Below are positions 14,664-37,027 of a DNA stretch of 64,000 nt, piece by piece. This stretch comes from Limnobacter sp. 130 (GTDB lineage Bacteria; Pseudomonadota; Gammaproteobacteria; Burkholderiales; Burkholderiaceae_B). Every line of letters begins with the position of its first letter. Within the stretch, counting starts at the first letter, position 1. Position numbers and translations under genes: made by a program. Where the stretch lies: positions 372,001 through 436,000 of the forward strand of contig NZ_LR732328.1 of the NCBI RefSeq assembly GCF_902506325.1. Direction: 5' to 3'. The notes below the pieces were generated by a model. That model saw only the letters and a program-made list of their open reading frames with translations. It was not told the DNA's origin and ran no database searches.

Positions 14664-14851
14664 TGCTTTTTCTGGTGTAAAAGTAACGCCGGTAAATCGA
14701 GTACACCGCCTAAAATGCTGAAATCTTTGGGTTAACTTACGTGATTCTTACCAAAATCCCGGGAAGAATGGTATTGTTGATTCTGCCGGAAGTCTTATAC
14801 AACACTTATAAAAACCGAGCCCACGCAGGCTCCGCCGGGGAGACATAAAAA

Positions 14852-14866
14852 GCCACTCGAAGTGGC
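14852..14866. other. Small perfect hairpin upstream of the acyl-CoA ligase gene
   Basis: GCCACT-CGA-AGTGGC forms a 6-bp perfect stem in the leader, 43 bases before the ligase start. The gap (14664-14909) also holds TACCA and TGGTA arms around a CCCGGG near 14750-14775. I found no GGTAA-N6-TTACC copy here, so this gene may not be under the same repressor as the fad operon. Confidence 0.3.
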
Positions 14867-14909
14867 ACCTCCTTGGCCGCATTCGCTCGGTTTACAGGAG
14901 ATTAGTTAC

Positions 14910-20609: not shown

Positions 20610-20696
20610 CCGTTGAGGTGACTCCTTAGAGGGATGTTTAACCCATCGCCCATCTGGATACTGAACTGTACCGAATTGGAATGGATGAGCAACAGT

Positions 20697-22253
20697 ATGA
20701 AACCCAACACCGTATTAAACACCGCTTTGTCGGTGAGCAAAATTGGTGTTTACGCGGCTGTCGTCCTTGGCGCTGCGGCTTGTTCATCGCTTCGACCCTT
20801 TGGCCAGGAGGACGAGTTTCGTGCCAAATTGAAGGCGCCGGACATCACTGGCGCCAGTTCGGCAGCTTCCCAGGTTACGTTGCCAATTGAGCGCTTGCCC
20901 TCCGACACGTTCTGGGTTCGTCCCCAAATCTCGGAAGGTGATTTGCCTGATCGACGTGTCGACAACCTGTCGGTCACAGAACGCGGTTTATTTGATGTGT
21001 TGCAGCTGATTTTCGCCAGCACCAACATGCCATTGAGTTTTGAGGGTGGGGCGGATGCAGCGTCCCGTTATGGGGTGGTCACGCTGAACAACTTGAGCGG
21101 TAGTCTGCCGCAGGTCATGAACAAGTTGGGCGAGATCATGGGGTTCTTCTGGACTGTGACCGAGTCGGGTGTGCTGAGGATCATGCCCGAACAGCAGTTT
21201 GTGGTCACCATGCCACCCGTGCTGAATGAGGACAGCATGGCTGGCATTACCAACACCATGCAGTATCTGGGGGCGCGTGACGTGTACCTGGATCGCATTA
21301 ACAGGTCGTTGGTTTTTCGTGCCAATCGCCGCGCATTAAGCGACATCCAGAATTATCTGGAGCGGGCACGGGCCACACGATCGTTGATTGTGTATGACAT
21401 GAATGTGTTGCAGGTTGATCTGAATGACTCCAACAACATGGGTGTGCGTTGGGAGTTGTATAAAACCGGAAACGGGATCAACACGGCGCCGGATTCGGCG
21501 CTTGCCGGTGCCTCAAGTACGGCAGACCGAATTACCCAGTTGACCCGTACCGCATCGGGCATTGAAACCCTGATTTTCGGTGAAAACTTTTCAACCAATT
21601 TTCTGATTGATTTTTTAAAGTCGCAAGGCGACGTAAAAACGTTGAGTCAACCCAAAATTGGTTTAATGAATGGCACCAACGGCAATATTCGTGTGGGGCA
21701 ATCCACCACCTTCGTCTCGCGCGTGGGGTCTCAAATTGTCAATGGCGTGGCGCAGTCTACTGCGGACACGCAAAACCTGCGGACTGGTCTTGAAGTCTCG
21801 CTGACTGGCGAGGCGCACGACTCAACCATTTACACCCGCATCAATATTTCAATCACTGAATTGTTAGCGTTAAAGCGCTTCACTGCCTTGGGCGTCGATC
21901 TGAATCTGCCCGAAGTGGCCGACCGTGAGCTGAAAACACAAGTGCGTTGTCGCCCTGGTGACACGATATTGCTGGGTGGCATTACCGTGTCCAGGGCGCA
22001 AGACGATTTTCAAAGTGGTTTGGGCACGCGCAGTCGAACCGAGGCCACGAAACAAACTGAACTGGTGGTGACCATTCGCCCACGCCTGTTGCTGTTCGGG
22101 GAAGTGGCCAAGCAGGAGCAGCCTGCAGCACAAACGCCTGTGTTGGAACCTGTGGAAACGGCGACACGCGCTTTGCGTTTGTCCACAAGCCTGGGCTTTG
22201 TTCCGGCACCGGTTCAAATGATTTCCAAACTGACCCAGGTTCAGGAGCGGTAA
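20697..22253 (+). CDS. pilN: Secretin lipoprotein, type IVb pilus (PilN/BfpB) type
   Basis: 518 residues from the ATG at 20697. ATGs at 20634 and 20685 are in frame, but this one gives a compact lipoprotein leader ending G-A-A-A-C (Cys29). About residues 80-170 fit the N0/STN-like domain, then a short N1-like part, and ~210-480 the secretin C-domain, with L-S-Q-P-K-I-G-L-M-N-G and the closing R-P-G-D-T-I-L-L-G-G-I. It would form the outer-membrane pore of the machine encoded downstream. A lipidated secretin points to the type IVb/PilN class rather than PilQ. It is first gene of a tightly packed operon (3-base gap to the next). Confidence 0.85.
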   Translation: MKPNTVLNTALSVSKIGVYAAVVLGAAACSSLRPFGQEDEFRAKLKAPDITGASSAASQVTLPIERLPSDTFWVRPQISEGDLPDRRVDNLSVTERGLFDVLQLIFASTNMPLSFEGGADAASRYGVVTLNNLSGSLPQVMNKLGEIMGFFWTVTESGVLRIMPEQQFVVTMPPVLNEDSMAGITNTMQYLGARDVYLDRINRSLVFRANRRALSDIQNYLERARATRSLIVYDMNVLQVDLNDSNNMGVRWELYKTGNGINTAPDSALAGASSTADRITQLTRTASGIETLIFGENFSTNFLIDFLKSQGDVKTLSQPKIGLMNGTNGNIRVGQSTTFVSRVGSQIVNGVAQSTADTQNLRTGLEVSLTGEAHDSTIYTRINISITELLALKRFTALGVDLNLPEVADRELKTQVRCRPGDTILLGGITVSRAQDDFQSGLGTRSRTEATKQTELVVTIRPRLLLFGEVAKQEQPAAQTPVLEPVETATRALRLSTSLGFVPAPVQMISKLTQVQER

Positions 22254-22256
22254 TTC

Positions 22257-23114
22257 ATGCAAATCTACTCAAACCGAATTCTGATGTGTACCTTGATTGT
22301 GCTTCTTGTTGCCCGGTCTGGCGTGGCCTTGTCCCAGCAAACAATCGCAAATCCATTGATTCGTCCAGCCGTGTCGCAAGCGATACCCTCAGGCAGTGGA
22401 TCGGGGTCTGCCAATGCGTCACAAAGTCAGCCTGATTCCGATGCTGGCGGTGGTGCCGCTGAGCTGCGCAGGCAGGCCGAGCGCAGAATTACCCAGGAAG
22501 ACCTGAACATTCGGCAGCAAGCCTTGAACTCTCCTGTAATACCAGTTCCCCTGATCAACCTTTTTGCCAACATGCAGGTCACTGCCCATTTCCAGGGGGC
22601 CATTGTCATGCGCAGGGTTGAAAACGATTTTGCGTCCCCGCAGGTGATTCAGTCTGCGGCTGTTCAACAATCGAGCAACGGCCGTGGCGAATCTCCTCCC
22701 GCTGTGGTTGTACCTCGTCCCGTGTCTCGCTCATCGGGTGCACTTCGATTGCGGGTGGGAAAAACTGAAAATGTCAGTGGTTATCCCTTGCGAGCCAAGG
22801 TGAACGGGCAAGACATCACGGTTGATTGGCTTAGTGAAAATGGTGCCTGGGTCAACGTCTTTTATGGTGCGCTTGAATCCAGTGCGGGCGGCCTTCCTCA
22901 AGTACCCAGTGATTCTCAGTTATTGAAAGTGGAAACCGATCGGTTTGATCATTTGGTCCCTGTATTGCGAACTCAAACCTTCTCGCCTTCCGGTACCTTG
23001 GGCGGCCAGCAGGGCGGTAACTTGGGCTCTGGGTTTGGCGGTGGAAACGGCGGTTTCGGTGGTGGCCCGGGTGGCAACAATCAACCAGGTTTTGGTACTG
23101 GCTTTCCCAACTGA
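22257..23114 (+). CDS. Exported Gly-rich protein of the pilus operon, unrecognised
   Basis: 285 residues with a signal peptide (core at 9-24). After a Ser/Gly-rich linker (about 45-65) comes a region with predicted strands (V-I-P-V-P-L-I-N-L-F-A-N-M-Q-V-T-A-H-F-Q-G). The last ~40 residues are almost only Gly, Asn, Phe and Gln. I recognise no family. Its position between secretin and ATPase matches where R64-type pil operons carry accessory periplasmic proteins, so it may link the secretin to the inner-membrane parts. Start: ATG, 3 bases after the secretin stop. Confidence 0.7.
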   Translation: MQIYSNRILMCTLIVLLVARSGVALSQQTIANPLIRPAVSQAIPSGSGSGSANASQSQPDSDAGGGAAELRRQAERRITQEDLNIRQQALNSPVIPVPLINLFANMQVTAHFQGAIVMRRVENDFASPQVIQSAAVQQSSNGRGESPPAVVVPRPVSRSSGALRLRVGKTENVSGYPLRAKVNGQDITVDWLSENGAWVNVFYGALESSAGGLPQVPSDSQLLKVETDRFDHLVPVLRTQTFSPSGTLGGQQGGNLGSGFGGGNGGFGGGPGGNNQPGFGTGFPN

Positions 23115-23128
23115 AGGAAACATGCAGC

Positions 23129-24829
23129 ATGAAATCACTTGAGGCAGATTTGATGCAAGCCGGGCTGGATGATCATCAGCTTAATTTGCTTCGCCAACAA
23201 CACACCCATCTGCGTGGAGAAGGGCGCTCGGCGGAATTGGGCAGCCTTGCTTTGCGCTCACGGTTTTTGAATCTTGATGATCTGATCGATTCGGGTTCTC
23301 AGGAAGACTCCAATGTGATTGGCGACCACTTCACGCTTCAAACTATTTTGCCGCTTGAGTTCTGTCGGCGTTTTGTTTGTGTGCCCACCGAGTTTTCAAA
23401 AGGTGTGCTGACCTTGCGTTGCGCCCAGCCACTGAAGGCAGCGCAACAGGATCGAATACGTCAGATTTTGCGGGCCCCTGTTTCGGCATTGAAATTTTTA
23501 CCTTCCAGCCGCCAGGAAGTGTGCGAGCTGTTGCTGCGAATTGAGCAATCGGGTTCAGTAAATGGTTTGATCACAGTTCTTCGGCATGAGGGGCTTGAAG
23601 CCGGGCGCCTACGCAGCCTGGTTTATGCGGTGCTCAAAGAGGCTTTGTCCTTGCGTGCCAGCGACATACACCTAAGCCGCAAAGGCGACCCCGATGCCTG
23701 GATCGCGTATCGGGTGGATTCGGTCATGCGCCAAACCCACTTGTTGCCTGAGTTGCTAATGCAATCGCTGGTGGCCCGTATCAAAATTGAAGCGGGTATG
23801 GATGCATCCAATAGCCGCACGGCTCAAGATGGTCGTTTGACCGTTGAACATGAAGGCAGGGTGGTGGATTTTCGAATTTCCACGCAACCGCTAGTAGATG
23901 GCGAGTCCGTTGTGCTGCGTGCATTGGATGCATCGCTGTTGCCCAGTCTGGGGGCTTTGTTTCCAGGCCAGCCCAAGATGACGGAGTTGATCCGAAGCAT
24001 CACCAATCAAACCGGGAAAACCGGTGGATTGGTATTCATTTCCGGTGCAACAGGCTCGGGCAAAAGCACCACGCAGTACACCGTGGCTTGCGGCTTTCGG
24101 CGTGATGCCATGAATGTGATCACGGTAGAAGATCCGGTTGAATACATTTTACCCTTCGCCAAACAAATTCAATTGCAGGCCTTGGTGAAGCAAAAGGCAA
24201 TTGAACTTGAACGTTCGATTTTACGCCAAGACCCGGACATCTTGATTTTTGGTGAGGTGCGGGATGCCGATTCTGCGCGTGCCGCCCTGGCCTTCGCCGA
24301 AAGTGGTCACTTGGTGATTTCTACCATTCACGCCAACAGTGTGTTGCAGGTGAGTGAGCGCTTTTTGTCCATGATTGACCCGGCCCACCGTGCTGATTCC
24401 GAGTTTTTGCTTGCGCATTTCTTGCGGGTCGTGATTCACCAGCGTCTGGTGCGTCGACTTTGCTCATGCGCAAAACCTGTTCAGGCGGAAATACTGGACA
24501 TGTTCCATTCACAGGCGTATCGACTCACGGGCGGCTTGATCCTGCCGCGCGCGGGTTTACGTCAAAAGGTCGGTTGCACGCGTTGTGCCGGTTTGGGATA
24601 TTCAGGTCGGGTTGCTGCACATGAAACCATGCATGTGCCTGTTGACGAGTCAATGCGTGGCCGTTTTGTGAAGGCATTTAAAAGTCACAATCTTGAGCTG
24701 CCTGTTGATTTATGTACAGAGAACGGTGTTGATTACACCAGCCGGCTACAAACCCTGCAAACCCTGTTGGATCAAGGCTTGGTCGATTGGCCCAGTGTCC
24801 TTCAGGTTCTTGGTGTGGCAGGGGATTAA
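23129..24829 (+). CDS. Type II secretion / type IV pilus assembly ATPase (GspE/PilB family)
   Basis: 566 residues. It is the cytoplasmic motor that powers pilin polymerisation. Walker A is G-A-T-G-S-G-K-S-T (306-314, Lys312). The Asp box, Walker B (D-I-L-I-F-G-E-V-R-D) and His box (S-G-H-L-V-I-S-T-I-H-A-N-S) follow in the right order. The C-terminal zinc module is only partly kept, as C-S-C and C-T-R-C instead of two clean CxxC pairs. The ~140-residue N-terminal domain is poorly conserved, as in BfpD- or R64 PilQ-type ATPases. No second, retraction-type ATPase is visible nearby. Confidence 0.9.
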   Translation: MKSLEADLMQAGLDDHQLNLLRQQHTHLRGEGRSAELGSLALRSRFLNLDDLIDSGSQEDSNVIGDHFTLQTILPLEFCRRFVCVPTEFSKGVLTLRCAQPLKAAQQDRIRQILRAPVSALKFLPSSRQEVCELLLRIEQSGSVNGLITVLRHEGLEAGRLRSLVYAVLKEALSLRASDIHLSRKGDPDAWIAYRVDSVMRQTHLLPELLMQSLVARIKIEAGMDASNSRTAQDGRLTVEHEGRVVDFRISTQPLVDGESVVLRALDASLLPSLGALFPGQPKMTELIRSITNQTGKTGGLVFISGATGSGKSTTQYTVACGFRRDAMNVITVEDPVEYILPFAKQIQLQALVKQKAIELERSILRQDPDILIFGEVRDADSARAALAFAESGHLVISTIHANSVLQVSERFLSMIDPAHRADSEFLLAHFLRVVIHQRLVRRLCSCAKPVQAEILDMFHSQAYRLTGGLILPRAGLRQKVGCTRCAGLGYSGRVAAHETMHVPVDESMRGRFVKAFKSHNLELPVDLCTENGVDYTSRLQTLQTLLDQGLVDWPSVLQVLGVAGD

Positions 24830-24831
24830 GC

Positions 24832-26082
24832 ATGTCCATTTCTAACTTCCGGGTCGATTACCTGGCTCCCCAAATGCTGGATGCGACTGCACGACCTGAC
24901 GACAGGCTAAGTGGTTACTTTCGCCATCAATTGGTGATTACTGCGTCTAGAAAACGCGAGGCAATTCAGCAAGTGATTGACCGTGGTGGCGTTGTGCTGG
25001 ATGTATTTGAACTGCAAGCCAAAGGCCGTTTGTCCCGCCTGTTTGGTTCGAAAGTGAGTCGCAGTTACAAACAAAAATTTTTGCAGGCGCTTGCGTTTAA
25101 TGTGCGTTCAGGCTTGTCACCCGAGAAGTCACTGGAGCAGGTAATTTTGGGTGAATTGGGTGAGCCGCGTTTGATGTTGAACCAGGCTTTGAATGCATTG
25201 CGGCAGGGTTTCGGATTTGTGGCCGCAGTCGAGCTGCTGAACTGGTTTGATGATTCTACGCTGGCGGTATTGAGCGCAGGCGAGGCCGCCGGCCAGTTGA
25301 GCGAGGCCCTTGAAACTGCCGTGAGTTTTTATGAAAAAGGCTCAGCCACTTTGAAGTTGATGTTTGGTGCGGTCACCTGGACTGCACTTGATCTGATTAT
25401 GGCGGTGTCTACAGTTGTTGGCATGCGTTTTGGTTTGATTGAGCAGTTAAAGGCAACGCCACTCATGAGCGAAGATCCCGCCAAGGTTGCACAATACAAC
25501 AGCTCCCTTGCATTGGCTGAATGGGTCAACAATGGTTTGCTTGTATTTTCATTTCTGTTTTTTCTCATCCTGATCTACTTCACCATGCTGGTGTTGTCAC
25601 CTGACCAGAAAACGCGTACGCAGGCGTTTGGCATGCTTGAGAAAGTACCGGTGATCGGCGAGTTGCTGATTTCCTCTGGCATTGCCGCGACCACACGGGT
25701 GTTGGGTTCTTTGTTGACTGGTGGTGTGGCATTTCTAAACGCTGTACAAATTGCGCGCAAAGGCACCATTACGCCCACCGTGTCCCTGTTCTGGAAAACC
25801 ATCACCGATCGCAGCGAGATCGGCGAGCAGCCTGCAGTGGCATTCAATCATCCCTTGCTCGACAGCAGTGAGCGCCTACTGATTCGCGCACACAAAGATC
25901 AGGCGCAACTGGCTGAGTGTTTGGCCTCGATTTCACAAACCCGCGATGACAAAGCCAACAGTGCGGCACGCAAATTTGCGGTTATTGCGTTTGTGGCTTC
26001 ACTCGCTTATTCGGGCATCGCAGTGCTGTTCAGTTTGGCAGTGGTGTATTTGCAAAACGAAGTTGTGCTGTCAGGAGCCTAA
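24832..26082 (+). CDS. Inner-membrane platform protein (GspF/PilC family)
   Basis: 416 residues from the ATG at 24832 (AGGGG just upstream, overlapping the ATPase stop region). It has two T2SSF repeats: a cytoplasmic helical domain with G-L-S-P-E-K-S-L-E, then a membrane segment near 180-200, a second near 225-255, a second T2SSF domain and a last segment near the C-terminus. It anchors the ATPase to the membrane and to the pilin fibre. The diverged sequence fits the PilR/BfpE (type IVb) group more than canonical PilC. Confidence 0.82.
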   Translation: MSISNFRVDYLAPQMLDATARPDDRLSGYFRHQLVITASRKREAIQQVIDRGGVVLDVFELQAKGRLSRLFGSKVSRSYKQKFLQALAFNVRSGLSPEKSLEQVILGELGEPRLMLNQALNALRQGFGFVAAVELLNWFDDSTLAVLSAGEAAGQLSEALETAVSFYEKGSATLKLMFGAVTWTALDLIMAVSTVVGMRFGLIEQLKATPLMSEDPAKVAQYNSSLALAEWVNNGLLVFSFLFFLILIYFTMLVLSPDQKTRTQAFGMLEKVPVIGELLISSGIAATTRVLGSLLTGGVAFLNAVQIARKGTITPTVSLFWKTITDRSEIGEQPAVAFNHPLLDSSERLLIRAHKDQAQLAECLASISQTRDDKANSAARKFAVIAFVASLAYSGIAVLFSLAVVYLQNEVVLSGA

Positions 26083-26085
26083 GTC

Positions 26086-26955
26086 ATGGAAGCCATCAAT
26101 TTAAAAAGTATTTATTCCAACTTGATTGCAGGGCGTTTGCCCGTGGGTACCGGCAGTGCACAAAAGGTGGTCATGAATCAGGCCTATGCCATTTTGGGTA
26201 CCAACCGCCTTCATGCCTATTGTATGGAGCGCTCGGGACATGTGTATTACTTTGCCATTGAAAGTGCCTGGCTCAGTTCAGCACCTGGCTTCAATTTGCC
26301 CTTCGTTGATGTATTGCCCGACGGCCCTTTGCATGTAGGCGATGCGATCTATTTGATGCACGGCGCGGATTACTCAGCCGCCCTGATCATCGAAGGTGGC
26401 AGTGTGCGATTGCTTTGCAATGATCAAGATGTGTTGAAAGACTATCTCATTGGTCTGGACCTGCAAATTGTCGAAATTGATCACAAGGGTGGTAAACCGC
26501 TCAGCAGTATTCCGCAGGCCATTCAAGGCATTACCGAGCGTTTTAGTGCATTGATGATGAAGGGATCAATTGGCGTGCTGATCTCGGCATCCATGGTTTT
26601 TCTCGGTTCACAGGCAGCAAGTGCCTACACCAATAGCCAAGCCGCCAGTGGCCTGAATGCACAGGCTGTTGAGAATGACCTGAATGCCACACTGGTTAAG
26701 CTCAGCGTTCAACAGCCACTTGCCCGGCAAATTTCCCGAATACAAAAAGTGTCGGCGACTGTGGTGCGCTCAGGTGGCTGGATCGAGAAATACAAGATGA
26801 AAGGTGAAGACGACGAGTCTTTTGAATTGGTACTGCCGAGTTGGGTAAGCCAGGATTACCTCGATTCCCTGGGGCGCGACGTGATCACCGATCTTAGGGA
26901 TATGGAAGGGCTGCTAAGTGTACGTAAACAAGGCAAGAAGGAGTCAGTCAAGTGA
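26086..26955 (+). CDS. Bitopic membrane protein of the pilus operon
   Basis: 289 residues. The N-terminal ~155 residues are a probably cytoplasmic domain without a signal peptide. One hydrophobic segment (about 160-182, G-V-L-I-S-A-S-M-V-F-L-G) is followed by a charged C-terminal part, presumably periplasmic. This architecture matches GspL/PilM-N-like or R64 PilO-like assembly proteins, but I see no motif that proves homology. Three bases separate it from the platform gene, and the next gene overlaps its end by 4 bases, so it is an integral operon member. Confidence 0.68.
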   Translation: MEAINLKSIYSNLIAGRLPVGTGSAQKVVMNQAYAILGTNRLHAYCMERSGHVYYFAIESAWLSSAPGFNLPFVDVLPDGPLHVGDAIYLMHGADYSAALIIEGGSVRLLCNDQDVLKDYLIGLDLQIVEIDHKGGKPLSSIPQAIQGITERFSALMMKGSIGVLISASMVFLGSQAASAYTNSQAASGLNAQAVENDLNATLVKLSVQQPLARQISRIQKVSATVVRSGGWIEKYKMKGEDDESFELVLPSWVSQDYLDSLGRDVITDLRDMEGLLSVRKQGKKESVK

Positions 26956-27437
26956 AACTGGATATAAAGAACAACAGCTCATTGTGGATTGCCGAGGCCA
27001 GCCGACTCATGGGCCTTGCGCCGGTTTTCGCCATGATGTGTGCCGTAATCATGGTGATTTTGGCTGCATTTTCGGTCAACGATTTTCTTCGCGCAACCGA
27101 GCTTGAACGAAAAAGTCAGGAGTTGCCTGAGTTCACTTTAAAGCGTGTGCCAGTTGGCAAGGTGGTCTACGAGGAGTATGCCCGAGTGCTTTCCAGGTTA
27201 AGCCCAGACGTGCAAGTGCTTGCCAATCGCGACAGCATCAAGATTGATATTGCCGACCCCTCCAAATATGCCGAATTCATGTACGTATTGAATAGCGTAC
27301 AGGGCATTTCAAAAGACGTGGTGTGGCATGCAGAGGAAATATGTCTGGCGGGCTGCTCGGGGCACGCTTCGCTGGCCGTTGTTAAAGGTATGACAGAGAA
27401 AGTGGAAGTCAAATTGAGAGGGCAAGGCGATGAGTGA
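26952..27437 (+). CDS. Small bitopic membrane protein of the pilus operon (PilO/GspM-like position)
   Basis: 161 residues: a short cytoplasmic start, one membrane helix (about 20-42), then a periplasmic domain that reads as an alternating helix-strand fold with a possible disulfide in E-I-C-L-A-G-C. Size, topology and place next to the previous bitopic protein suggest a partner in an inner-membrane alignment complex, like GspL/GspM or PilN/PilO. It overlaps both neighbours (ATGA at 26952; 8 bases at the end). The assignment rests on topology and context, not on recognised sequence. Confidence 0.65.
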   Translation: MKLDIKNNSSLWIAEASRLMGLAPVFAMMCAVIMVILAAFSVNDFLRATELERKSQELPEFTLKRVPVGKVVYEEYARVLSRLSPDVQVLANRDSIKIDIADPSKYAEFMYVLNSVQGISKDVVWHAEEICLAGCSGHASLAVVKGMTEKVEVKLRGQGDE

Positions 27438-28284
27438 ATCCGACAACAAAGTTGGCGTACCGTTTGCCAAACAAAAAGTGACCCTGGGGGTTGCGGCCTT
27501 GGGCATGGTGGGTTTGGTGTCATGGGCCGGTTGGACTGCATTTCAGGGTCCTTCCAATACAGGTGTTTCTCCGGTGGCCAGCGCATTTGCTGCTGGCACT
27601 TCTGCCAACAAATCTGACCGGGAAGTGGCCAGTATTAATGGTATGAAAATTACTGAAATGGAGTTGGGCAGCATGCTGCAGTCGGGCGTGGACCGCGCAA
27701 TTGTGATCGACCGTTACATCAATAAAGTGGTGGCTGCGGAGCGCGGTCGCGAGATGTATGTGGAAGAGGCCAAAGCTGCCCTGCGCGCAGCTGAGCGTGA
27801 AGTACTTTCTACTTTGTACACCACCAAGCGAATGGAAGAGTTGCGGAAAGCCGTAAGCGACGATGAAGTAAGGGCTTACTACGATGCCAACGTACTCGAC
27901 CAAAACTTTCAGCAGTGGAAAGTCAGTTATTACCTGAGCAATGATCAAAACGATGTGCAGCAAACCCTGGAGAAATTAAAGAAGGGCGAGAAGGACGCGC
28001 TTGATCAGTTAAAGCCACTGGTGGAGCAGGGTGACGGCTATGCCGTAGCTCAGGCGCTGCCTTACAACCTGGGGCGAGTGGTATCGAAAATGAAGAAAGG
28101 TGAGTTCAGCGAAGTGCTTAGATTGCGAAATGGCCTCTTGGTTTTGAAGATTGAGGACAGCAAACAATTTAAAAAACCCACCATGGAAGAATTGAAGCAA
28201 GACATAGTTCAGGCCCTTGCTTTAGAAAAATTCAATGCCGAACTTGAGCAGGCCCGCAGGCAGGCCAAGGTGGAGTTGGGTTAA
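27430..28284 (+). CDS. Membrane-anchored parvulin/SurA-like peptidyl-prolyl isomerase
   Basis: 284 residues. Residues ~16-36 form one membrane anchor. Then comes a SurA-N-like helical part (V-A-S-I-N-G-M-K-I-T-E-M-E-L and Y-I-N-K-V-V-A-A-E-R) and a rotamase-like domain at ~160-250 ending L-R-L-R-N-G-L-L-V-L-K-I-E-D, as in parvulins of the EpsD/PrsA type. The parvulin active-site signature is weak, so it may act as a chaperone more than as an isomerase. It overlaps the previous gene by 8 bases. A dedicated foldase inside a pilus operon fits a large, hard-to-fold client such as the fibre protein encoded downstream. Confidence 0.72.
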   Translation: MSESDNKVGVPFAKQKVTLGVAALGMVGLVSWAGWTAFQGPSNTGVSPVASAFAAGTSANKSDREVASINGMKITEMELGSMLQSGVDRAIVIDRYINKVVAAERGREMYVEEAKAALRAAEREVLSTLYTTKRMEELRKAVSDDEVRAYYDANVLDQNFQQWKVSYYLSNDQNDVQQTLEKLKKGEKDALDQLKPLVEQGDGYAVAQALPYNLGRVVSKMKKGEFSEVLRLRNGLLVLKIEDSKQFKKPTMEELKQDIVQALALEKFNAELEQARRQAKVELG

Positions 28285-28326
28285 TTAAACAAGGCTTGAG
28301 CAACACAGGTAATCAAGGAGAACATC

Positions 28327-29019
28327 ATGAAAGGTATTTTTAATCCCGTCGCCGGATTGCGAAAGCAAAAGCAATCGGGTTTTATTCAAGCAGCCTTGCT
28401 CTTCGGCATTGCCTTGATGACAGCCGTGCTGGGTGGCTTTGCATTGGCCAACCGAAGCCCAACCTCACAAACCGATGTGGAGCAAGCAAAAGTCAATGCC
28501 TCGGTTATTTTGAAACAGGCCAGTGATTTGCGCGATGGGGTGGCCAGGTACTCAAGCGATTTTGGTTCATCTGCAGTGTTGACCATGGATTTTTCGAATT
28601 CATCAGGGCAAGGTTTGTTTGATCCTGCGGCCCGGTACGCATCGCCACAAATTATGCCGACCTCTGCATTTGCAGCGGGTGCAGACACCAGCATCAAGCC
28701 GCCTTCAGCGCCATCGGCTGGGCACTGGTACATCAACAAGGCAACCGCGGGTAAATTGTTGGCGACAACTGAAGAAGACCCCATGGTGATTTTGCCTGAC
28801 CTGCGTGAGGATGTGTGTGGCCGAGTCAACACGCTCTTGTACGGCAGTAACATCGTTCCTTCAGCAAGCAACGCTTTGTCGGACTGGCTCGCTGGCACTG
28901 ACGGCGGAATTTCAGCAATCTCGACTGCTGCTCCGGCGGATGTGTCGGGATGGCCAGAAGGCTGTATCGAAACCAGCGACAATAAGTTTGTGTATTTCAA
29001 GGTTGTTCAAGAAAACTAA
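28327..29019 (+). CDS. Prepilin-like protein 1 (probable major subunit)
   Basis: 230 residues with a prepilin-type N-terminus: positively charged leader, then Q-S-G/F-I with the likely cut after Gly18, followed by a ~20-residue hydrophobic helix (A-A-L-L-F-G-I-A-L-M-T-A-V-L-G-G). Glu at mature position 5, common in type IV pilins, is replaced by Ala. The globular part carries one Cys pair (D-V-C-G-R and E-G-C-I-E), typical of pilin D-regions. It would be cut by a prepilin peptidase, none of which is encoded in this window. A good ribosome site (AAGGAG) precedes it, and a terminator right after it suggests high, separate expression. Confidence 0.72.
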   Translation: MKGIFNPVAGLRKQKQSGFIQAALLFGIALMTAVLGGFALANRSPTSQTDVEQAKVNASVILKQASDLRDGVARYSSDFGSSAVLTMDFSNSSGQGLFDPAARYASPQIMPTSAFAAGADTSIKPPSAPSAGHWYINKATAGKLLATTEEDPMVILPDLREDVCGRVNTLLYGSNIVPSASNALSDWLAGTDGGISAISTAAPADVSGWPEGCIETSDNKFVYFKVVQEN

Positions 29020-29036
29020 GCCACCAAGACATCATC

Positions 29037-29061
29037 AAGCCCGCAATTGCGGGCTTTTTTT
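29037..29061 (+). terminator. Intrinsic terminator after prepilin-like gene 1
   Basis: The perfect palindrome AAGCCCGCAA / TTGCGGGCTT (29037-29056) runs into seven T (29055-29061). It lies 18 bases after the first prepilin-like gene and about 100 bases before the second, so it should reduce read-through into the fibre gene or mark a separate transcript. Confidence 0.88.
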
Positions 29062-29159
29062 ACGTTGTATTTCACCAAAGCAAGGGATGTGGGCTTGCGT
29101 GAATTCACCCGTTAACCCGGTATGCACCGAATTCCGTGCCAAGAACCGAGGTGAAAAAA

Positions 29160-29696
29160 GTGAATTGGAAAGCCATTCAACAGCAAAGCGGATTCATCGC
29201 TTCCTACATTTTGTACGGCATTGGTTTGCTGGCCATTGTGGGCGCGGCCTATGCGCGCTTGAATACCAGCGCACAGCAGGGTCAGTCTGTTCAAGACACC
29301 GTCAGCGAGGTTGCCGTACAACTCGAAGTCATTAAGGGAAAAATCATGCTTTGTGCGGCGGTTTATCCCGATGGCGACCATGAACAGTTCGACACACGGC
29401 ACGCCTACCCCGCACCAGCCACCACGGGCAACGCTGCAGTCATTTCATCTGTTGTTTGTCCCGCACCCAATGGCGATTTGTCGCTTGCCCTGATGCCCGA
29501 CGGAATTCCCTTGCCGGTCAGTCCTCCTGATTTCGACGAGTGGGTGTACGAGCACACGGAAACCGGGGGAATACGGCTGCGATTAATACCCCGTGTAAGC
29601 GGTGGTGCAGCAGCAACCCGAGAGCGCCTGTTGCGTCAGTACGAGGGGTCAGTCATCGCCTCGGGCGATGAACTTGTGTTTGCGGTATTGAACTAG
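29160..29696 (+). CDS. Prepilin-like protein 2 (probable minor subunit)
   Basis: 178 residues from the GTG at 29160, chosen because GAGGTG lies 6 bases upstream; a GTG at 29136 is an alternative. The N-terminus repeats the pattern of prepilin 1: a short charged leader, Q-Q-Q-S-G/F-I (cut after Gly11) and a hydrophobic helix (Y-I-L-Y-G-I-G-L-L-A-I-V-G-A-A-Y). Again no Glu at mature position 5. Two Cys occur (M-L-C-A-A-V, V-V-C-P-A-P). It sits 8 bases before the giant fibre gene, so it may be the pilin-like element that anchors or primes that fibre. Confidence 0.68.
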   Translation: MNWKAIQQQSGFIASYILYGIGLLAIVGAAYARLNTSAQQGQSVQDTVSEVAVQLEVIKGKIMLCAAVYPDGDHEQFDTRHAYPAPATTGNAAVISSVVCPAPNGDLSLALMPDGIPLPVSPPDFDEWVYEHTETGGIRLRLIPRVSGGAAATRERLLRQYEGSVIASGDELVFAVLN

Positions 29697-29704
29697 GAGT
29701 TCAC

Positions 29705-32700
29705 ATGAAGAAAAATAATTCCGGAATCAACACCGCCAGTTTTCAACCGAAACCCATTGTGCTGGCTGTTCAAAAGGCCTTGCCGTATTTGGTGGCCTTC
29801 AGTTTGAGTGCAGCTGCTGTGTCTCCCGCGGTGGGCCGCTCGGGCGATTCCGCTGCTGCCTTCACCGCGACCCAGCTAATACGTCAATTCACACTAAAAA
29901 ACACAGTGGCGCAGGTCAGTCAAGGCATGCAAGGACATGTCGAAGAGGTCAACGGCGTGCTGCGCGCCAAGGAAATGGGTGCCAGACCTACCGGGTATCC
30001 TGCCGACATGGGGTCTGTGCCATCCTCGGCCAATTTGCCACAACGCGACGGTGCAGGTCGCCCTCTTGGATACTGCGCTTGGGACAACAATTCATCAACA
30101 TCCAACAGCAGTTTTCTGGCCGGGCAGGGCGTACCCAACCCACTCGTGTACGCCGTGGTGTCCCCAGGTTTGAATGGCAGCATGGAAACCAGTTGCACGT
30201 ATGTTCTGGCCAATCTTGGTGGTCTGGGCGACGATTACGTGCAGGTCACCGCGCCATCGCAAACATCTTCGAGACAATTCAGAAGTGCCGTCGGCACTTA
30301 TGCGGACTTAACCGCCATGCCTGGTGAGGAAGGCGACGTTCGATTGGTGCTGGATACCAACAAACTTTACAGCTATGTAGGCGGTGCTTGGCAGCCAGTG
30401 GATGCCAGCAAGTTTAATGATGATTCGGCCAGTAACGGGGCAGGCGCCATTGCCTACACCACTGGCAAAGTCACAGTGGCTGATTTTCAGGCAGCCAGTG
30501 CAACTATCACAGGCGCTCTGGCCGGAAGTACGGCCACATTTTCAAGCAGTGTAACTGCCTCTGGTTTTATCGGAAACGGTGCCGCTTTGACTGACCTGAA
30601 TGCAAGCAATGTCAGCAGTGGGGTTTTGGGTGCTGCATTTGGTGGCACAGGGGTTGATTCAAGTGCGGCCGCGCAGGGTAGTTTGCTGATTGGTACCGGC
30701 GCAGGTTTCGCGTTGGGTGCAATCAGTGCCGGTGACGGAATTGGCGTATTGAACGGTGCTGGCAGTATCACCATTTCAAACACAGGTGTAATTAGCATTG
30801 CCGGCACAAACAACCAGGTAATCGCAAGCGCCATGAATGGCGATGTGGTGCTGAGTTTGCCACAAGACATAGCCATGACCAGTACGCCCACTTTTGCGGG
30901 CGCATTCTTCAACGGCAATGTCGATGTCGCCTCGATCAGCCAGGCGGGCGTACCCGCCACATTGGCTTTTCAATACGCCAGCGATACAGGTTCAACTTTT
31001 TATGCCGAACCCAATCTGGGGTTGGGAACTGGTGCATTGGCTGGTCGCAAGAATGCAGGCAATGTGGCGGTGGGCAACGGCGTACTCGGACAAATGACTA
31101 CGCTCGGCTATGGCGAGGAGTCGGGTACCTGGAACACTGGCGTGGGTTATCAAGCCTTGTACACCAACGATTACGGAGATGAAAATACGGCGTTGGGTTA
31201 CAAGAGCATGTTCAGTAACACCACGGGTTACTACAACACGGCATCGGGTGCCTGGTCGATGTATGCGAATACGACGGGCAGTTTCAATACGGCCAGCGGC
31301 TACTACAGTTTGCAGGCCAACACCACAGGCTTTGACAATGTGGCGATTGGCGCTTATGCACTCATGACAAATACCTCGGGCAGCAGCAACGTGGCAGTGG
31401 GGGAGTTTGGGTTGGGCCGCAACACAACGGGTTACTACAACACGGCTGTGGGTGATGCCGCCCTGAATGGCAACACCACTGGTTTCTACAACACAGCGAT
31501 AGGCTCATATGCCGCTGACAATATAAGCACCAGTGCTTATGTCACTTCGATTGGCGCATTTTCAATGTACAGGGCAACCGCCACCGAGAGTGTCGCTGTC
31601 GGTACCAACACCCTGTATTACTCGGAAGGCCAATACAACACGGCTGTGGGCAACAACACATTCGGCGAGTTGCGCACAGGGGGCTCCAACACAGCGCTGG
31701 GTCACTACGCCATGCCTGCGTTAACAACAGGCGATACCAACATTGCCGTCGGTCATCGTTCGGGCAACACCATCACAACAGGCAGCCGCAACATCTTGAT
31801 TGGCGACCACGCGGGCAATGGCACTTTGACCAGCACCAGCAATATTGCGTTGGGTAATAGCGCAACAATTGGCGATGCGCTGTCTTATGCAGTCACCATT
31901 GGCAATGATTCGTCGGTCACGACATCCAACACAGTGGTGCTTGGGCGCACCACGGATAACACTGTAATTGGCGCAACCGCCGACGATGGCAGTGGCAACA
32001 AACTTCAAATTACCGGTGGTTTGCGGGCCTCTGGCAATGTGTTTTTGAATACAGGCAGTGCTGCCAACTACACGCAGTTAAGGGACTTGCGGGTGATGTC
32101 TTCAAACAACGATGCTGGCTGGGATCATCTGCGGATTTATTCCGGTGCCCGTTCAACCACCATAGATGTTGGTGGAGCCGAAGATGGGCTTATTTTCCGT
32201 GTGGGTCAAGGTGGATCCGGCGGGGTAGGCGACCAAACCTACAACACAGTGCTCACCCTGAAACCGGATCAGTCAGCTGTATTCGCGGGCCGTGTTGATG
32301 TTCAAAGTTTGTACGTCAATGGTGAGCAGGTGGCACCCGTGAACAAGGCAAACATTGATGCAGCACTTACCTTCGCAAGTACTGTAGGCGCAGCATTTCC
32401 ACAAAGCAGTTTGGCCCTGGGCATTAATGCACTGGGTGCTGATCCACGCGCAGGCAATATCGCAATTGGCGAGGGCGTACTTACAAGCCTGTCACCCAGC
32501 GCTGTTTCTACCGAGGGAATTTTTAACACAGGTGTGGGCTTTAATGCGCTCACCGTGAACAGCACAGGTTCGTACAATACAGCGATAGGCACGTACACAC
32601 TGAATGCCAACACAAGCGGCTACAACAACACCGCTGTGGGTGTGTATGCCATGGTGAATACCACCACGGGTTTCGACAATACCGGTGTGGGCCGAAATGC

Positions 32701-35200
32701 ATTGAACCTGAATACAAGCGGTAGCCGCAACAATGCCGTGGGTGTGAATGCGCTTCACAGCAACACCACAGGTGTGCAAAACAATGCAATCGGTACCAAC
32801 GCGATGTTCTCGAATACCACGGGTTATCAAAACGTGGCGTTGGGTGACAATGCCTTGTACACCAATAGTGTGGGGTATCAAATTGTGGCCATTGGTCAAG
32901 ACGCCCTGTACAACAACACCACCGGCTATCAAAACGTTGCGATCGGTTTTAATTCCCAACGCAGCACTACCTCGGGCTATCGAAATACCGCGGTGGGTAT
33001 TAATTCGCTACTGAACAACACCGATGGTTTCGAGAATAGCGCATTTGGTGTGAACGCCTTGTTGGCCAACACCAGCGGCGACTACAACAGCGCCTTTGGT
33101 GTAAACAGTTTGTTAACCAACACCACAGGTGAACGAAATGTGGGTGTGGGATTCAACACCTTGTTAAGTAACACCACGGGCTCGAACAACGTGGCGGTGG
33201 GGGTCAATGCGTTGTTGAAAAATACCACGGGCAATGAAAATACGGCTGTGGGCGACAATGCCCTGTTCGAGAACACCACAGGGCATTCGAATGCCGCTGT
33301 CGGTCGTGGCGCCATGAATAACAATACCACTGGTTATTACAACATTGCCATGGGTCGAAACGCCCTGCTAACCAACACCACCGGCTACAACAACAGTGCT
33401 TTGGGTTACAACAGCCTTATTTTTAACACCACGGGTTACAACAACGCAGCATTGGGTCGCAACGCATTACAAAACAACACCACGGGGTTTAATAACACAG
33501 CGATCGGCACGTTTTCCATGTTTGGCAGTACCACTGGCCTGGACAACACTGCAGTGGGCTTGAACTCCCTGTACTCCAATACCGCTGGTAATGCCAACGT
33601 TTCCTTGGGTAAAAACGCTTTGCTAGGCAATACAACCGGCAGCTACAACATGGGTGTCGGCACTTCTTCCGATGTATTGGTAAACAGTGTGAACTACGCA
33701 TCTGCGGTCGGTGCCTTTGCGCGTGTCACCACATCGAATACTCTCGTGTTGGGTGCTTTGGGTGTTGCCAAAGACGGTGTCGTATCTTCAACGGACGATC
33801 AGGTGGTCATTGGCGCCACATCGCGCAGCGACACCTATGTGAACACCAAGTTGCATGTCAATGGTGCCGCCAGCTTCAGCGGGCAAATCGCAGCAACTGG
33901 CGGTGCGCTGGTGTCGAGTAACCAGTACTTGCGTTTTGGTGAGCCGACAGAAACCTCTGATCCAATGGCCATATATAGAACCAATGCTGCAGCCGATCAA
34001 AGCAGGTTGAGGATAGGTATTGGTGACAACGCAAGTACATTTGGCGGGGTCAACGCCGATGAACTGCAGGTGGGCTTGTTGGGGCTCGACTTGGTAAGCT
34101 ACACGCCCGTGTTCAGAATTGCAGGCAGTGGCGATGTGATTGCCAACGGCTATGTTCAAGCCACCGCATTCAATGTCAGTTCAGATCGGCGTTTGAAAAC
34201 CAATATTCAGGCACAAAATTCCGATTCGGTATTAAGCAGGCTTGAGCAACTACAAACTTACAGCTACGAGTACCTGGCCAACCCCAATCTGGGGCGACGC
34301 ATTGGTGTAATTGCGCAAGAAATCCAAAACCTGTTCCCCGAGGCTGTGGCAACCCGGGCCGACGGCATGATGTCCGTGGATTACAGCGCATTGGGTGCCA
34401 TGGCAGCCATGGGTGTTGGTCAGTTGAGTAAACAAGTCAAAGTGCTTGATAAAACGGTATTGGAACAAGGGCAGCGGATCGATGTGCTCGATGATCGAGT
34501 GAATCAACATGACATGCGCATTACTTCCCTGGAAGGATGGAAAACCGAGGCAGTGAAACGCATGGATGGCATGCAAAACGCGATCGATTTGAATATCCAA
34601 AAAATTGCCGAAAACGCGGTGGCCATTCAAACCAATTCAATTGCGATCGAGCGTTTGGACGATGCTTTATTTACCCTCGATGGGCAAGTGAAAAACAATT
34701 CAGATTCAATCAACCACATCAATTCACGGTGGGCAAAAAACTTTAGCGAATCGACCGACGGTTCTTTGCTCACGATCAATGCAGTGGAACTGAAAGTGAG
34801 CAACTTCACGGCGCAGCAGGTGCGTTCGAACTCAGTTTATTCTCAGCGGCTTGAAGCGGAAATGGCGCGAATCACCGACCTGGAGGTCAACAATCTTCGA
34901 GCCAACTCAGCAGTTGTCAACACCGTACAGGCTGAGCAATTAAATACTGGATCTGTTCAGGTTTATGCCGGAGTGGGTTTGCCTGCCGTGCTGTTTGCTG
35001 CCAAATCAGACGGTCATTACACCGTGAGTACCAGTGCACTCGATGGTAGCTATGCCACGGCTACTGTGATTGTGAATGCGGGACAAGCCAAAGTGATCTC
35101 GGTGGCCAGCGAGGGCATTGAATTGTATGCAGAAGGCAATCAGGTCAAGGTGATTGCCGCAGGCAAATCGATCAAAGCGAGTTGGATCAAAATGGGTTAA
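29705..35200 (+). CDS. Giant fibre-like protein with 17-residue repeats and S74 self-cleaving chaperone domain
   Basis: 1,831 residues; GGAG lies about 5 bases before the ATG. Order: a signal-like hydrophobic segment at ~22-45 ending near P-A-V-G; an N-terminal domain with two Cys (Y-C-A-W and T-S-C-T-Y); stalk-like Gly/Ala/Ser/Thr-rich sequence; a repeat block from 488 (at least eight 17-residue units, then degenerate ones); an interruption; 22 in-register 17-residue units at 952-1325; a further head; the S74/endosialidase chaperone start S-D-R-R-L-K (1493-1498) with A-Q-E-I-Q-N-L-F-P-E-A-V; a coiled coil at ~1550-1750; and a terminal beta-like domain. Members of the S74 group trimerise and cut themselves before that Ser. 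I infer a trimeric surface or pilus-tip fibre. Its receptor is unknown. Confidence 0.8.
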   Translation: MKKNNSGINTASFQPKPIVLAVQKALPYLVAFSLSAAAVSPAVGRSGDSAAAFTATQLIRQFTLKNTVAQVSQGMQGHVEEVNGVLRAKEMGARPTGYPADMGSVPSSANLPQRDGAGRPLGYCAWDNNSSTSNSSFLAGQGVPNPLVYAVVSPGLNGSMETSCTYVLANLGGLGDDYVQVTAPSQTSSRQFRSAVGTYADLTAMPGEEGDVRLVLDTNKLYSYVGGAWQPVDASKFNDDSASNGAGAIAYTTGKVTVADFQAASATITGALAGSTATFSSSVTASGFIGNGAALTDLNASNVSSGVLGAAFGGTGVDSSAAAQGSLLIGTGAGFALGAISAGDGIGVLNGAGSITISNTGVISIAGTNNQVIASAMNGDVVLSLPQDIAMTSTPTFAGAFFNGNVDVASISQAGVPATLAFQYASDTGSTFYAEPNLGLGTGALAGRKNAGNVAVGNGVLGQMTTLGYGEESGTWNTGVGYQALYTNDYGDENTALGYKSMFSNTTGYYNTASGAWSMYANTTGSFNTASGYYSLQANTTGFDNVAIGAYALMTNTSGSSNVAVGEFGLGRNTTGYYNTAVGDAALNGNTTGFYNTAIGSYAADNISTSAYVTSIGAFSMYRATATESVAVGTNTLYYSEGQYNTAVGNNTFGELRTGGSNTALGHYAMPALTTGDTNIAVGHRSGNTITTGSRNILIGDHAGNGTLTSTSNIALGNSATIGDALSYAVTIGNDSSVTTSNTVVLGRTTDNTVIGATADDGSGNKLQITGGLRASGNVFLNTGSAANYTQLRDLRVMSSNNDAGWDHLRIYSGARSTTIDVGGAEDGLIFRVGQGGSGGVGDQTYNTVLTLKPDQSAVFAGRVDVQSLYVNGEQVAPVNKANIDAALTFASTVGAAFPQSSLALGINALGADPRAGNIAIGEGVLTSLSPSAVSTEGIFNTGVGFNALTVNSTGSYNTAIGTYTLNANTSGYNNTAVGVYAMVNTTTGFDNTGVGRNALNLNTSGSRNNAVGVNALHSNTTGVQNNAIGTNAMFSNTTGYQNVALGDNALYTNSVGYQIVAIGQDALYNNTTGYQNVAIGFNSQRSTTSGYRNTAVGINSLLNNTDGFENSAFGVNALLANTSGDYNSAFGVNSLLTNTTGERNVGVGFNTLLSNTTGSNNVAVGVNALLKNTTGNENTAVGDNALFENTTGHSNAAVGRGAMNNNTTGYYNIAMGRNALLTNTTGYNNSALGYNSLIFNTTGYNNAALGRNALQNNTTGFNNTAIGTFSMFGSTTGLDNTAVGLNSLYSNTAGNANVSLGKNALLGNTTGSYNMGVGTSSDVLVNSVNYASAVGAFARVTTSNTLVLGALGVAKDGVVSSTDDQVVIGATSRSDTYVNTKLHVNGAASFSGQIAATGGALVSSNQYLRFGEPTETSDPMAIYRTNAAADQSRLRIGIGDNASTFGGVNADELQVGLLGLDLVSYTPVFRIAGSGDVIANGYVQATAFNVSSDRRLKTNIQAQNSDSVLSRLEQLQTYSYEYLANPNLGRRIGVIAQEIQNLFPEAVATRADGMMSVDYSALGAMAAMGVGQLSKQVKVLDKTVLEQGQRIDVLDDRVNQHDMRITSLEGWKTEAVKRMDGMQNAIDLNIQKIAENAVAIQTNSIAIERLDDALFTLDGQVKNNSDSINHINSRWAKNFSESTDGSLLTINAVELKVSNFTAQQVRSNSVYSQRLEAEMARITDLEVNNLRANSAVVNTVQAEQLNTGSVQVYAGVGLPAVLFAAKSDGHYTVSTSALDGSYATATVIVNAGQAKVISVASEGIELYAEGNQVKVIAAGKSIKASWIKMG
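31166..31573 (+). repeat. Coding tandem repeat, block 1 of the fibre gene (51-bp unit)
   Basis: Eight units of 51 bp, each encoding a 17-residue motif of the form N-T-T-G-x-x-N-T-A-x-G, closing with a hydrophobic pair. Later units up to about 31850 are degenerate and irregular in length. Each unit would add one coil to a YadA/tail-fibre-like beta prism. Confidence 0.8.
32558..33679 (+). repeat. Coding tandem repeat, block 2 of the fibre gene (22 x 51 bp)
   Basis: 22 units, exactly in register with no insertion (1,122 bp). The 17-residue consensus is N-T-T-G-x-x-N-x-A-V-G-x-N-A-L-x-x. The DNA of units differs at many sites, so the array is old and not freshly amplified. Units around 33100-33500 are the most alike and the likeliest place for copy-number change. 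Confidence 0.88.
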
Positions 35201-35279
35201 CCGCCCTGGGTGAATGCGAGCTTTGCAGATTGGAATATGCTGCTTTGGAATGATCTTGAAACCAGGGCAGGGAGTGGGC

Positions 35280-36398
35280 ATGATCCACGCACAAAGTACA
35301 TTGCAGACACAGCAGTCACACACAGAAGTACATTGCAACCCCGAGTGGGTGCAGCTGCAAAAAGAGCTGGGTTTCAGTTTGTTGCTCGGTACTCGGAGCA
35401 TGGGTGATCTGCACGTGATTGGTTTTCCACCGCAGGGCAATGCCCTGCATTTTCAGGTGGCAAATTTCCCTTTGTGTATGGGCATGGCCTTGCACGGGGA
35501 ACAGCTTGCAGTTGCTTGCCAAACTGATGTGCGCGTTTATCACAATATATTGTCCTTGCCTGGTATCGAGAGCCCGGTGTATCAGCGTTGTTATAGTCCG
35601 CGCAGTTTGCTGTTTACAGGCGATCTCGATGCGCATGAACTGGCTTTCACCGCCGATGGAGAAGTGCAGTTTGTTGCGGCGAAATACAGCTGTATTGTTG
35701 CCCCCAGTGCCTCCCATAGCGTGCGCGAAGTGTGGCGCCCCCGGTTTATTTCAGCCTTGTTGCCCGAAGACCGCTGCCATTTAAATGGCTTGTGTATGGA
35801 AGGTGGCGAACTGAAATACGTGACCTGTTTTGCGGTTACAAACGAAACAGCTGGTTGGCGGGGGCAGCCCTTCAACAGCGGGGTTGTGTGGTGTGCGCAA
35901 ACTCAGGAGGCAGTGTGCACGGGTCTGGTTCAGCCACACAGCCCACGAATTCACAACGGTGACTTGTATGTGCTGAACAGCGGTGCTGGCGAATTCGGTC
36001 GCATCGATCAACGCACTGGTCAATACGACTGCATTGCTTTTGTGGGGGGCTATGGCAGAGGCTTGAGTTTTGTAGGTGATTACGCCGTATTTGGCATCAG
36101 CAAGCCCCGGCACGATGGCTATATTCCCAATTTCCCGCTTCACGAAAGACTCAAGTCGCTTGGGCTGGCGGACCGTTGTCAACTGGTTGCGGTCAACCTT
36201 AAAACAGGCGATGTCATGCAGGCAATTACTTTTGAAGGTGAAGCCCGGGAGCTCTTTGATACCGTGGTCATTCCCGATTGTCGACAAGCGGCAGTCCTGT
36301 CGCTGGATGAAGCCCAGCATCCAGGTCTGCGGGTGATTGATCAATTAATTTCAGCCCCTGCTGCTGAAGTGGCGCGTGGCGAGGTGAGTGCGTGTTAA
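35280..36398 (+). CDS. TIGR03032-type (DUF4915) family protein
   Basis: 372 residues from the ATG at 35280, chosen because AGGGAG precedes it by 5 bases; ATGs at 35214 and 35250 are in frame but lack a good site. The pattern R-S-M-G-D-L-H-V-I-G, C-H-L-N-G-L-C-M-E-G-G, P-H-S-P-R-I-H-N-G-D-L-Y-V-L-N-S-G and G-Y-G-R-G-L-S-F-V fits TIGR03032 proteins, which I take to be beta-propeller-like. Their activity is unknown; I recall them near sulfotransferase and glycan genes. The gene begins 79 bases after the fibre gene and overlaps cysC, so these genes probably extend the fibre operon. Confidence 0.72.
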   Translation: MIHAQSTLQTQQSHTEVHCNPEWVQLQKELGFSLLLGTRSMGDLHVIGFPPQGNALHFQVANFPLCMGMALHGEQLAVACQTDVRVYHNILSLPGIESPVYQRCYSPRSLLFTGDLDAHELAFTADGEVQFVAAKYSCIVAPSASHSVREVWRPRFISALLPEDRCHLNGLCMEGGELKYVTCFAVTNETAGWRGQPFNSGVVWCAQTQEAVCTGLVQPHSPRIHNGDLYVLNSGAGEFGRIDQRTGQYDCIAFVGGYGRGLSFVGDYAVFGISKPRHDGYIPNFPLHERLKSLGLADRCQLVAVNLKTGDVMQAITFEGEARELFDTVVIPDCRQAAVLSLDEAQHPGLRVIDQLISAPAAEVARGEVSAC

Positions 36399-36973: not shown

Positions 36974-37027
36974 CTTTTTCACGGTTTCAAGGGAGTCTTG
37001 CAGACTGTCTCATGGCATGTGCGCACT

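Follow-up and report, generated by a model that had tools for sequence, protein, structure and literature searches.

The chromosome of this Limnobacter strain carries a ten-gene operon that probably encodes a distinct type 4 filament machine, with a trimeric phage-tail-like fibre as the dedicated cargo that it exports and displays. The operon is located at positions 20634-35200 (forward strand) of the window, a term used here for the whole stretch of DNA that was analysed (64,000 nucleotides, corresponding to positions 372001-436000 of contig C3 in a genome of 3.28 Mb), and the fibre gene is its last gene. The individual parts are of known kinds; their combination, the separate clade formed by the machine and the C-terminal domain (CTD) of the fibre are new as far as searched.

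Gene content of the operon

The features of the operon are as follows.

20634..22253, forward strand: secretin, probably lipidated (PF00263, E 4.9e-14); translation may start at 20697
22257..23114, forward strand: p2, exported periplasmic protein with an N-terminal hydrophobic segment, an NPLxRP motif and a Gly-rich tail
23129..24829, forward strand: assembly ATPase with an MshEN domain (T2SSE PF00437, 3e-73; MshEN PF05157, 6e-7; Walker A GATGSGKST)
24832..26082, forward strand: inner-membrane platform protein (T2SSF PF00482, 9e-19) with membrane segments, its start set by comparing loci L040, L041 and L045
26086..26955, forward strand: bi1, bitopic protein with one membrane segment (155-173), ~155 residues N-terminal and ~115 residues C-terminal of it
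26952..27437, forward strand: bi2, small bitopic protein with one membrane segment (22-40) and a periplasmic domain
27430..28284, forward strand: ppi, membrane-anchored parvulin-like foldase (Rotamase_2 PF13145, 3e-12; one membrane segment, 17-35)
28327..29019, forward strand: pilA, prepilin and probable major pilin, with the leader QSG/FIQAALLFGIAL and a helix, lacking Glu5; a terminator lies downstream
29037..29056, forward strand: intrinsic terminator-like hairpin followed by a T run, between pilA and pilB; top-ranked site, with compensatory changes in relatives
29136..29696, forward strand: pilB, second prepilin (Tyr5) and probable minor or tip pilin, adjoining the fibre gene in all fibre loci
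29705..35200, forward strand: fibre gene, 1,831 aa

All ten open frames of the original prediction are present in the order and with the gaps that it gave, and its naming of the genes is borne out by protein families and membrane segments. The intergenic gaps measure, in order, 3, 14, 2, 3, -4, -8, 42, 116 and 8 bases, so that neighbouring genes overlap or are 2-42 bases apart throughout, except for the 116 bases upstream of pilB. The lipobox Cys of the secretin is kept in six of seven relatives. The p2 gene occupies the same position in every complete locus, homologues of bi1 are found in all loci where the region is sequenced, and homologues of bi2 are found at the equivalent position in most. 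The ATPase contains four Cys residues (445, 447, 483 and 486) that are invariant in the three sequences compared and follow the pattern CxC...CxxC rather than the paired CxxC...CxxC. The products of p2, bi1, bi2, pilA and pilB have zero Pfam matches; pilA and pilB each encode a single membrane segment.

The ATPase (PF00437), the platform protein (PF00482) and class III prepilins with a G/F leader and a hydrophobic helix are encoded together, which is the combination that marks a type IV filament. A single Peptidase_A24 gene is found in the genome, outside the window (C4:36245-36574), and its product (PilD) is the candidate prepilin peptidase for these prepilins. PilT is encoded outside the operon at C3:617938, and the genome also has a T4aP PilB, a GspE and a TadA elsewhere.

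Hairpins equivalent to the one downstream of pilA, with compensatory changes, are found in most Limnobacter pilA-pilB gaps and in those of Rhodoferax and Noviherbaspirillum; none is found in this gap in several other loci. The hairpin may act as a partial terminator that would yield much pilA and little pilB and fibre, a ratio that fits a tip complex.

Directly downstream of the fibre gene (35214-38188 of the window) are genes for a DUF4915 protein, an APS kinase and an epimerase, with spacings of 13, -7 and 24 bases. The DUF4915 and APS kinase genes are present in some Limnobacter and absent from others, and on the Rhodoferax plasmid a sulfotransferase and an APS kinase gene follow the fibre. 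These neighbours could possibly serve in the sulfation of the fibre or of a surface sugar.

Fibre architecture and proposed route of export

The fibre is composed of the following segments.

29705..29836, forward strand: signal segment, residues about 1-44, hydrophobic at 25-43 and without a prepilin motif
29837..30406, forward strand: N-anchor, residues 45-234, with a long helix, a GYCxWDN domain and a small trimerisation-like unit
31010..33695, forward strand: variable shaft, residues 436-1330, with 17-residue repeats in two blocks
34181..34348, forward strand: S74 intramolecular chaperone, residues 1493-1548 (PF13884), predicted to be self-cleaving (SDRRLK)
34937..35197, forward strand: CTD, residues 1745-1831, ending KASWIKMG and kept in all 18 S74 fibres aligned

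The N-terminus is predicted to be a Sec-type signal and not a prepilin leader, and the fibre would accordingly be a Sec substrate. The N-anchor is common to the Limnobacter and Rhodoferax fibres (E 8e-19), and its structure model has a pLDDT of 85. The shaft has 33 repeat units with 17 as the commonest spacing, rising to as many as 92 units in other fibres, and it matches PHROG tail-spike and structural families. The match to Peptidase_S74 (PF13884) is strong (E 4e-15, 56.4 bits vs a cut-off of 22), and the motif SDxR[LF]K is found in 18 of the 18 pilus-type fibres aligned; self-cleavage and trimer formation are predicted from this motif. A coiled stretch separates the S74 domain from the CTD, which is about 85 residues long, ends in the pattern K-[AT]-[ST]-W-[ILT]-[RK]-[TM]-[GH] and is modelled as all-beta (pLDDT 88). 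The length of the fibre ranges from 840 to 4,315 aa across loci. Within Limnobacter, identity is 72-97% for the CTD and 53-88% for the anchor; for the shaft it is 26-47% in more distant species. The CTD lies C-terminal of the S74 site, so that cleavage would remove the most conserved part of the fibre. The CTD may clamp the trimer or may be read by the machine before release; it may also be an ordinary part of the fibre rather than a docking signal, given the resemblance of its model to trimer domains of tailspikes.

Relatives of the S74 domain are found in hundreds of phages. Searches with the CTD gave no match by tblastn in 50,697 phages and nothing in a pattern scan, of low sensitivity, over 2.9 million viral contigs. 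The sole match of the N-terminal part by tblastn in phages is a stretch of 57 residues in Rhodococcus phage ChewyVIII (E 7e-4); the N-anchor alignment contains no stretch conserved enough for a pattern scan. A phage origin of both fibre ends was rejected on the tblastn searches and the viral pattern scans. Foldseek searches with the anchor and CTD models gave no PDB match at E <=0.001, and PDB profile searches gave nothing credible. A second structural look at the CTD model identified trimer-type tailspike domains at middling scores (Z 8.3, 7.4 and 6.4), a hint of a trimeric form, and the end of the anchor resembles the 45-residue unit by which collagen XV/XVIII and tailspikes trimerise, again at middling scores that amount to a hint (Z 4.8-6.4, rmsd 1.2-2.4).

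The Rhodoferax fibre features the same anchor followed by other tail-fibre modules, without the S74 domain and the CTD, and a tail-fibre-assembly protein (PF16778) is encoded downstream of it. The presence of these modules and of PF16778 with the same anchor indicates that the fibre and the type of chaperone were exchanged together. A Gly-rich open frame lies between the Rhodoferax fibre and the tail-fibre-assembly gene (28845-29750 of locus L011) and perhaps encodes a second fibre tip.

From the gene content, gene order, conservation, linkage and motif, we infer a route of export, docking, passage and display. Directed by its N-terminal signal, the fibre would be exported across the inner membrane by Sec, and in the periplasm the membrane-anchored parvulin-like foldase would keep it competent. 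The S74 domain would then assemble three chains and cleave itself. The N-terminal anchor may dock on pilB, by analogy with the docking of TcpF and CofJ on TcpB and CofB. TcpF and CofJ are Sec-exported cargoes encoded in the pilus operon, whose mature N-terminus hooks a trimeric minor pilin and which leave with the pilus, and TcpF forms a trimer on the pilus (PMC9565799). A tie between fibre and pilB is suggested by the adjacency of their genes, and the conserved helix at the mature N-terminus, taken with this coupling to pilB, fits the TcpF/CofJ precedent. The ATPase and platform protein would polymerise pilA beneath the pilB-fibre unit and drive it out through the secretin. The fibre would finally be displayed as an adhesin, with fixed ends that fit the machine and a shaft that diversifies or is replaced. 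The observations that bear on the display step are the conservation pattern, with fixed ends and a variable shaft, and the replacement in Rhodoferax.

The prepilins leave the nature of the filament less certain. Glu5 pairs with the neighbouring N-terminus in filaments and usually drives polymerisation, and it is missing in tip-capping subunits (PMC10191384). It is found in 0 of 25 prepilins of this system, as read by eye from the sequences after a few regular-expression rows had mis-hit, and pilB has Tyr5 instead. The lack of Glu5 in all prepilins makes a true surface pilus uncertain. The operon might instead encode a short periplasmic piston, similar to that of a T2SS, that drives the fibre, already folded, out through the secretin, with the fibre held at the surface or released and no surface pilus formed. 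Besides the prepilins, this reading draws on the predicted Sec export of the cargo, on the lack of a retraction ATPase in the operon and on the best named model for the ATPase, which is GspE, at 244 bits under the cut-off of 630 and short of assignment to a T2SS. Against a piston, the terminator after pilA points to a single abundant pilin, the tree separates the ATPase from the GspE encoded elsewhere in the same genome, and T2SS-specific genes are absent from the operon. The piston is a variant of the dedicated-machine idea, with a probability that overlaps that of the pilus-borne fibre, and we regard it as a serious alternative, if an unlikely one.

Distribution of the operon and linkage of its parts

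Among 268 genomes of the family searched with the secretin profile, 16 Limnobacter and two sister-genus genomes gave strong matches, with a weak match in one more. The operon order is fully or almost fully preserved in about 12 Limnobacter genomes, with the fibre last; the fibre runs off the contig in one locus (L046) and its frame is interrupted once in another (L040). Limnobacter alone was matched in the order-level survey. A scan of the genomes of 84,980 species also identified the operon in two Noviherbaspirillum species and in Burkholderiales MAGs (L073-L075, L077, L080 and L081), together with core-only versions without a nearby fibre in Micavibrio MAGs and Piscinibacter. The whole gene set is encoded on a conjugative plasmid in Rhodoferax ferrireducens, and a Methylibium plasmid carries the core genes without the foldase and fibre. 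The original prediction had proposed looking across genera for this arrangement of genes, parvulin, prepilins and S74 fibre included; the search was run and the order recurs. The same gene order in other genera argues that the arrangement is not due to chance.

Several loci depart from this arrangement. The core operons of Methylibium (PM1 plasmid RPME01, L012) and Piscinibacter (MQ-18, L084) are nearly identical and adjoin an integrase gene and a Tn3-type transposase, which together point to recent transfer. The Rhodoferax locus (L011) contains a second, diverged secretin gene immediately upstream (14398-15813) and a duplicated pilA (24459-25094). In Limnobacter MAG B02.bin.52 (L049, 9928-12515), pilA and pilB are separated by an insertion of two unrelated genes, which encode 462 and 400 aa. 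In MAG UBA6064 (L050/L071), a pilA-type gene precedes the secretin gene with a uvrA-like gene after it, and several fibres are suggested by the CTD, which is partially matched four times on separate contigs.

Within the family, the CTD and the secretin are found together in 17 of the 268 genomes, the secretin is found alone in one, and neither is found in 250. The 17 genomes matched by the CTD profile are identical to the secretin-bearing set minus one genome (G148), in which a deletion joined the start of the ATPase gene to the end of the DUF4915 gene and took most of the operon and the fibre. Of these 17 genomes, 14 have the CTD inside the operon; the assemblies of G149, G150 and G152 are broken and place it on separate contigs. 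The association of secretin and CTD has a nominal Fisher p of 6e-26, a value inflated because kinship is ignored, and recurrence across genera is therefore the stronger argument. This fusion is seen at about 15965-16564 in MAG CACIAM 66H1 (L039), where everything between the two genes is deleted, fibre included. At class level, the CTD was found in one of 369 genomes, the genome of the window itself, which indicates that the system is rare outside Limnobacter. In the 268 genomes the CTD is confined to those that bear the pilus genes, and the outcome that the original prediction had named as counting against it, a fibre gene mostly found without pilus genes, was not seen. Its claim that a trimeric phage-like fibre has a dedicated machine is supported by the cross-genus order and by this linkage. 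A point against a dedicated machine is the existence of core loci without a nearby fibre in Methylibium, Piscinibacter and Micavibrio. A Micavibrio genome that has the core pilus also contains S74 fragments (L085 and L094), which lie at contig ends and do not adjoin the pilus genes.

The foldase profile matches the fibre-bearing loci tested and gives no match in four fibre-less loci (Methylibium, Piscinibacter and two Micavibrio); locus L082 ends before the foldase position. The profile was weakened by two sequences that are out of frame (L051 and L052), and its matches are unaffected. With about eight lineages compared against only two, this distribution is suggestive of a foldase that belongs with the fibre and is likely its chaperone.

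Linkage of this kind could also reflect co-inheritance only, where a phage gene for the S74 fibre was domesticated and shares the regulation of the pilus genes, and the fibre crosses the outer membrane by another route. The phage tail-spike families matched by the shaft and the S74 relatives in hundreds of phages are in keeping with such an origin, as is the locus of L. litoralis NBRC 105857 (L048), in which p2, the ATPase, the platform and half of bi1 are lost and the prepilins and a fibre frame of 2,384 aa are intact. The deletion in L. litoralis, at about 17500, extends from just 3' of the secretin into bi1, and this is a natural strain without a motor. Set against co-inheritance are the strict linkage over several genera, the conserved anchor and CTD that were not found in phages, the foldase found only with the fibre and the lack of a beta-barrel domain in the fibre by Pfam search. 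On this evidence co-inheritance alone is improbable, and a machine dedicated to the fibre remains the preferred reading.

Relation to known systems

The operon had originally been described as a set of core parts matching type IVb pili, with the fibre in the place of PilV, and neither description is supported. In trees that have long branches and few references, TCP and BFP not being among these, its ATPase and secretin fall in a supported clade of their own, distinct from R64-type PilQ/PilN, Msh-type, GspE/PilB and TadA proteins. The family does contain a genuinely R64-like cluster (G162, L056), and that one groups with R64. The secretin scores 53.5 bits with the PilN model, for which the cut-off is 287.65, and p2, bi1 and bi2 exhibit no significant match to the R64-type PilM/O/P profiles, at a level where remote similarity is possible. 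The R64-type reference prepilins PilS and PilV have Glu near position 5, the residue lacking in all prepilins here, and PilV is itself a prepilin, whereas the fibre has a predicted Sec signal and follows a separate prepilin. An R64-type IVb pilus in which the PilV adhesin was swapped for a phage fibre would account for the similar layout, in which secretin, ATPase, platform and prepilin genes are followed by a large variable adhesin, and for the occurrence of both systems on conjugative plasmids. It is contradicted by the separate clades, the profiles, the prepilins and the absence of a shufflon recombinase from the operon, and it is very unlikely; R64-type membership was rejected on the trees, profiles and Glu5. 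The machine is a type 4 filament and is not of the R64 type. Variation in the thin pilus with its PilV shufflon adhesin is generated by a recombinase, in contrast to the shaft change and replacement observed here.

A prophage or tailocin remnant mistaken for a pilus operon, which the phage-like fibre and the Rhodoferax tail-fibre-assembly gene might suggest, was rejected on a flank annotation without phage genes and is exceedingly improbable, with no adjoining phage structural gene within the window and with both the order of the ten genes and their amino-acid sequences conserved from genus to genus.

Other systems share single features with this one. The MSHA pilus is similar in that the best named model of the secretin is MshL (99 bits vs a cut-off of 250, below assignment to MSHA) and the ATPase has an MshEN domain; it differs in that the present system forms a separate clade and the MSHA gene set is absent. 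The toxin-coregulated pilus and CFA/III, with TcpF and CofJ, likewise have an operon-encoded cargo with a Sec signal. Unlike these cargoes, the fibre is a phage-like protein of 840-4,315 aa with S74 and CTD, and the machine differs in its prepilins without Glu5, its small minor pilin and its added foldase; the core machine falls in a different clade from the IVb pili that were compared, the toxin-coregulated pilus itself not being one of those. Phage S74 fibres and tailspikes, such as the L-shaped fibre of T5 and the endosialidases, also feature the S74 chaperone, a beta shaft and trimer-type end domains. The present fibre differs from them in its Sec signal, its bacterial operon and its anchor and CTD, which were not found in phages by sequence.

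The mosaic adhesive trimers (MAT) of Bdellovibrio are trimeric fibres at the surface of cells, with a signal peptide, a conserved N-terminal domain just after it and many proteins per genome; S74 with SDxxxK is present in 13 of 21, and the tips are variable (PMC10769870). The MAT paper names no exporter and leaves the surface anchor open (PMC10769870). In architecture only, the Limnobacter fibre resembles MAT proteins in its signal segment, its conserved N-terminal domain and its S74 domain on a trimeric beta shaft. It differs from them in that each genome has one such fibre, linked to a pilus operon, and in that the chain continues past S74 into a C-terminal domain. In the open-licence literature, no paper was found that ties S74 fibres to pili or that describes this system in Limnobacter.

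PMC6668835 lists the known classes of the type 4 filament superfamily, and there is a reasonable chance that the system merits one to itself. A broader proposal, which we offer tentatively, is that it represents a separate class without Glu5 pilins that evolved for the export of domesticated phage tail fibres and their display, in which a machine-specific N-anchor and CTD would take swapped phage receptor-binding modules with their chaperones (S74 or a tail-fibre-assembly protein), and that also moves on conjugative plasmids. In genome after genome an S74-type fibre accompanies one pilus-type machine, and the exit route of such fibres becomes testable. The system is a case of bacteria adopting phage receptor-binding modules in a filament system, where the ends are fixed and the middle can be replaced. 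If the separate-class reading is true, MAT-like bacterial fibres would have in this machine their first identified exporter and anchor.
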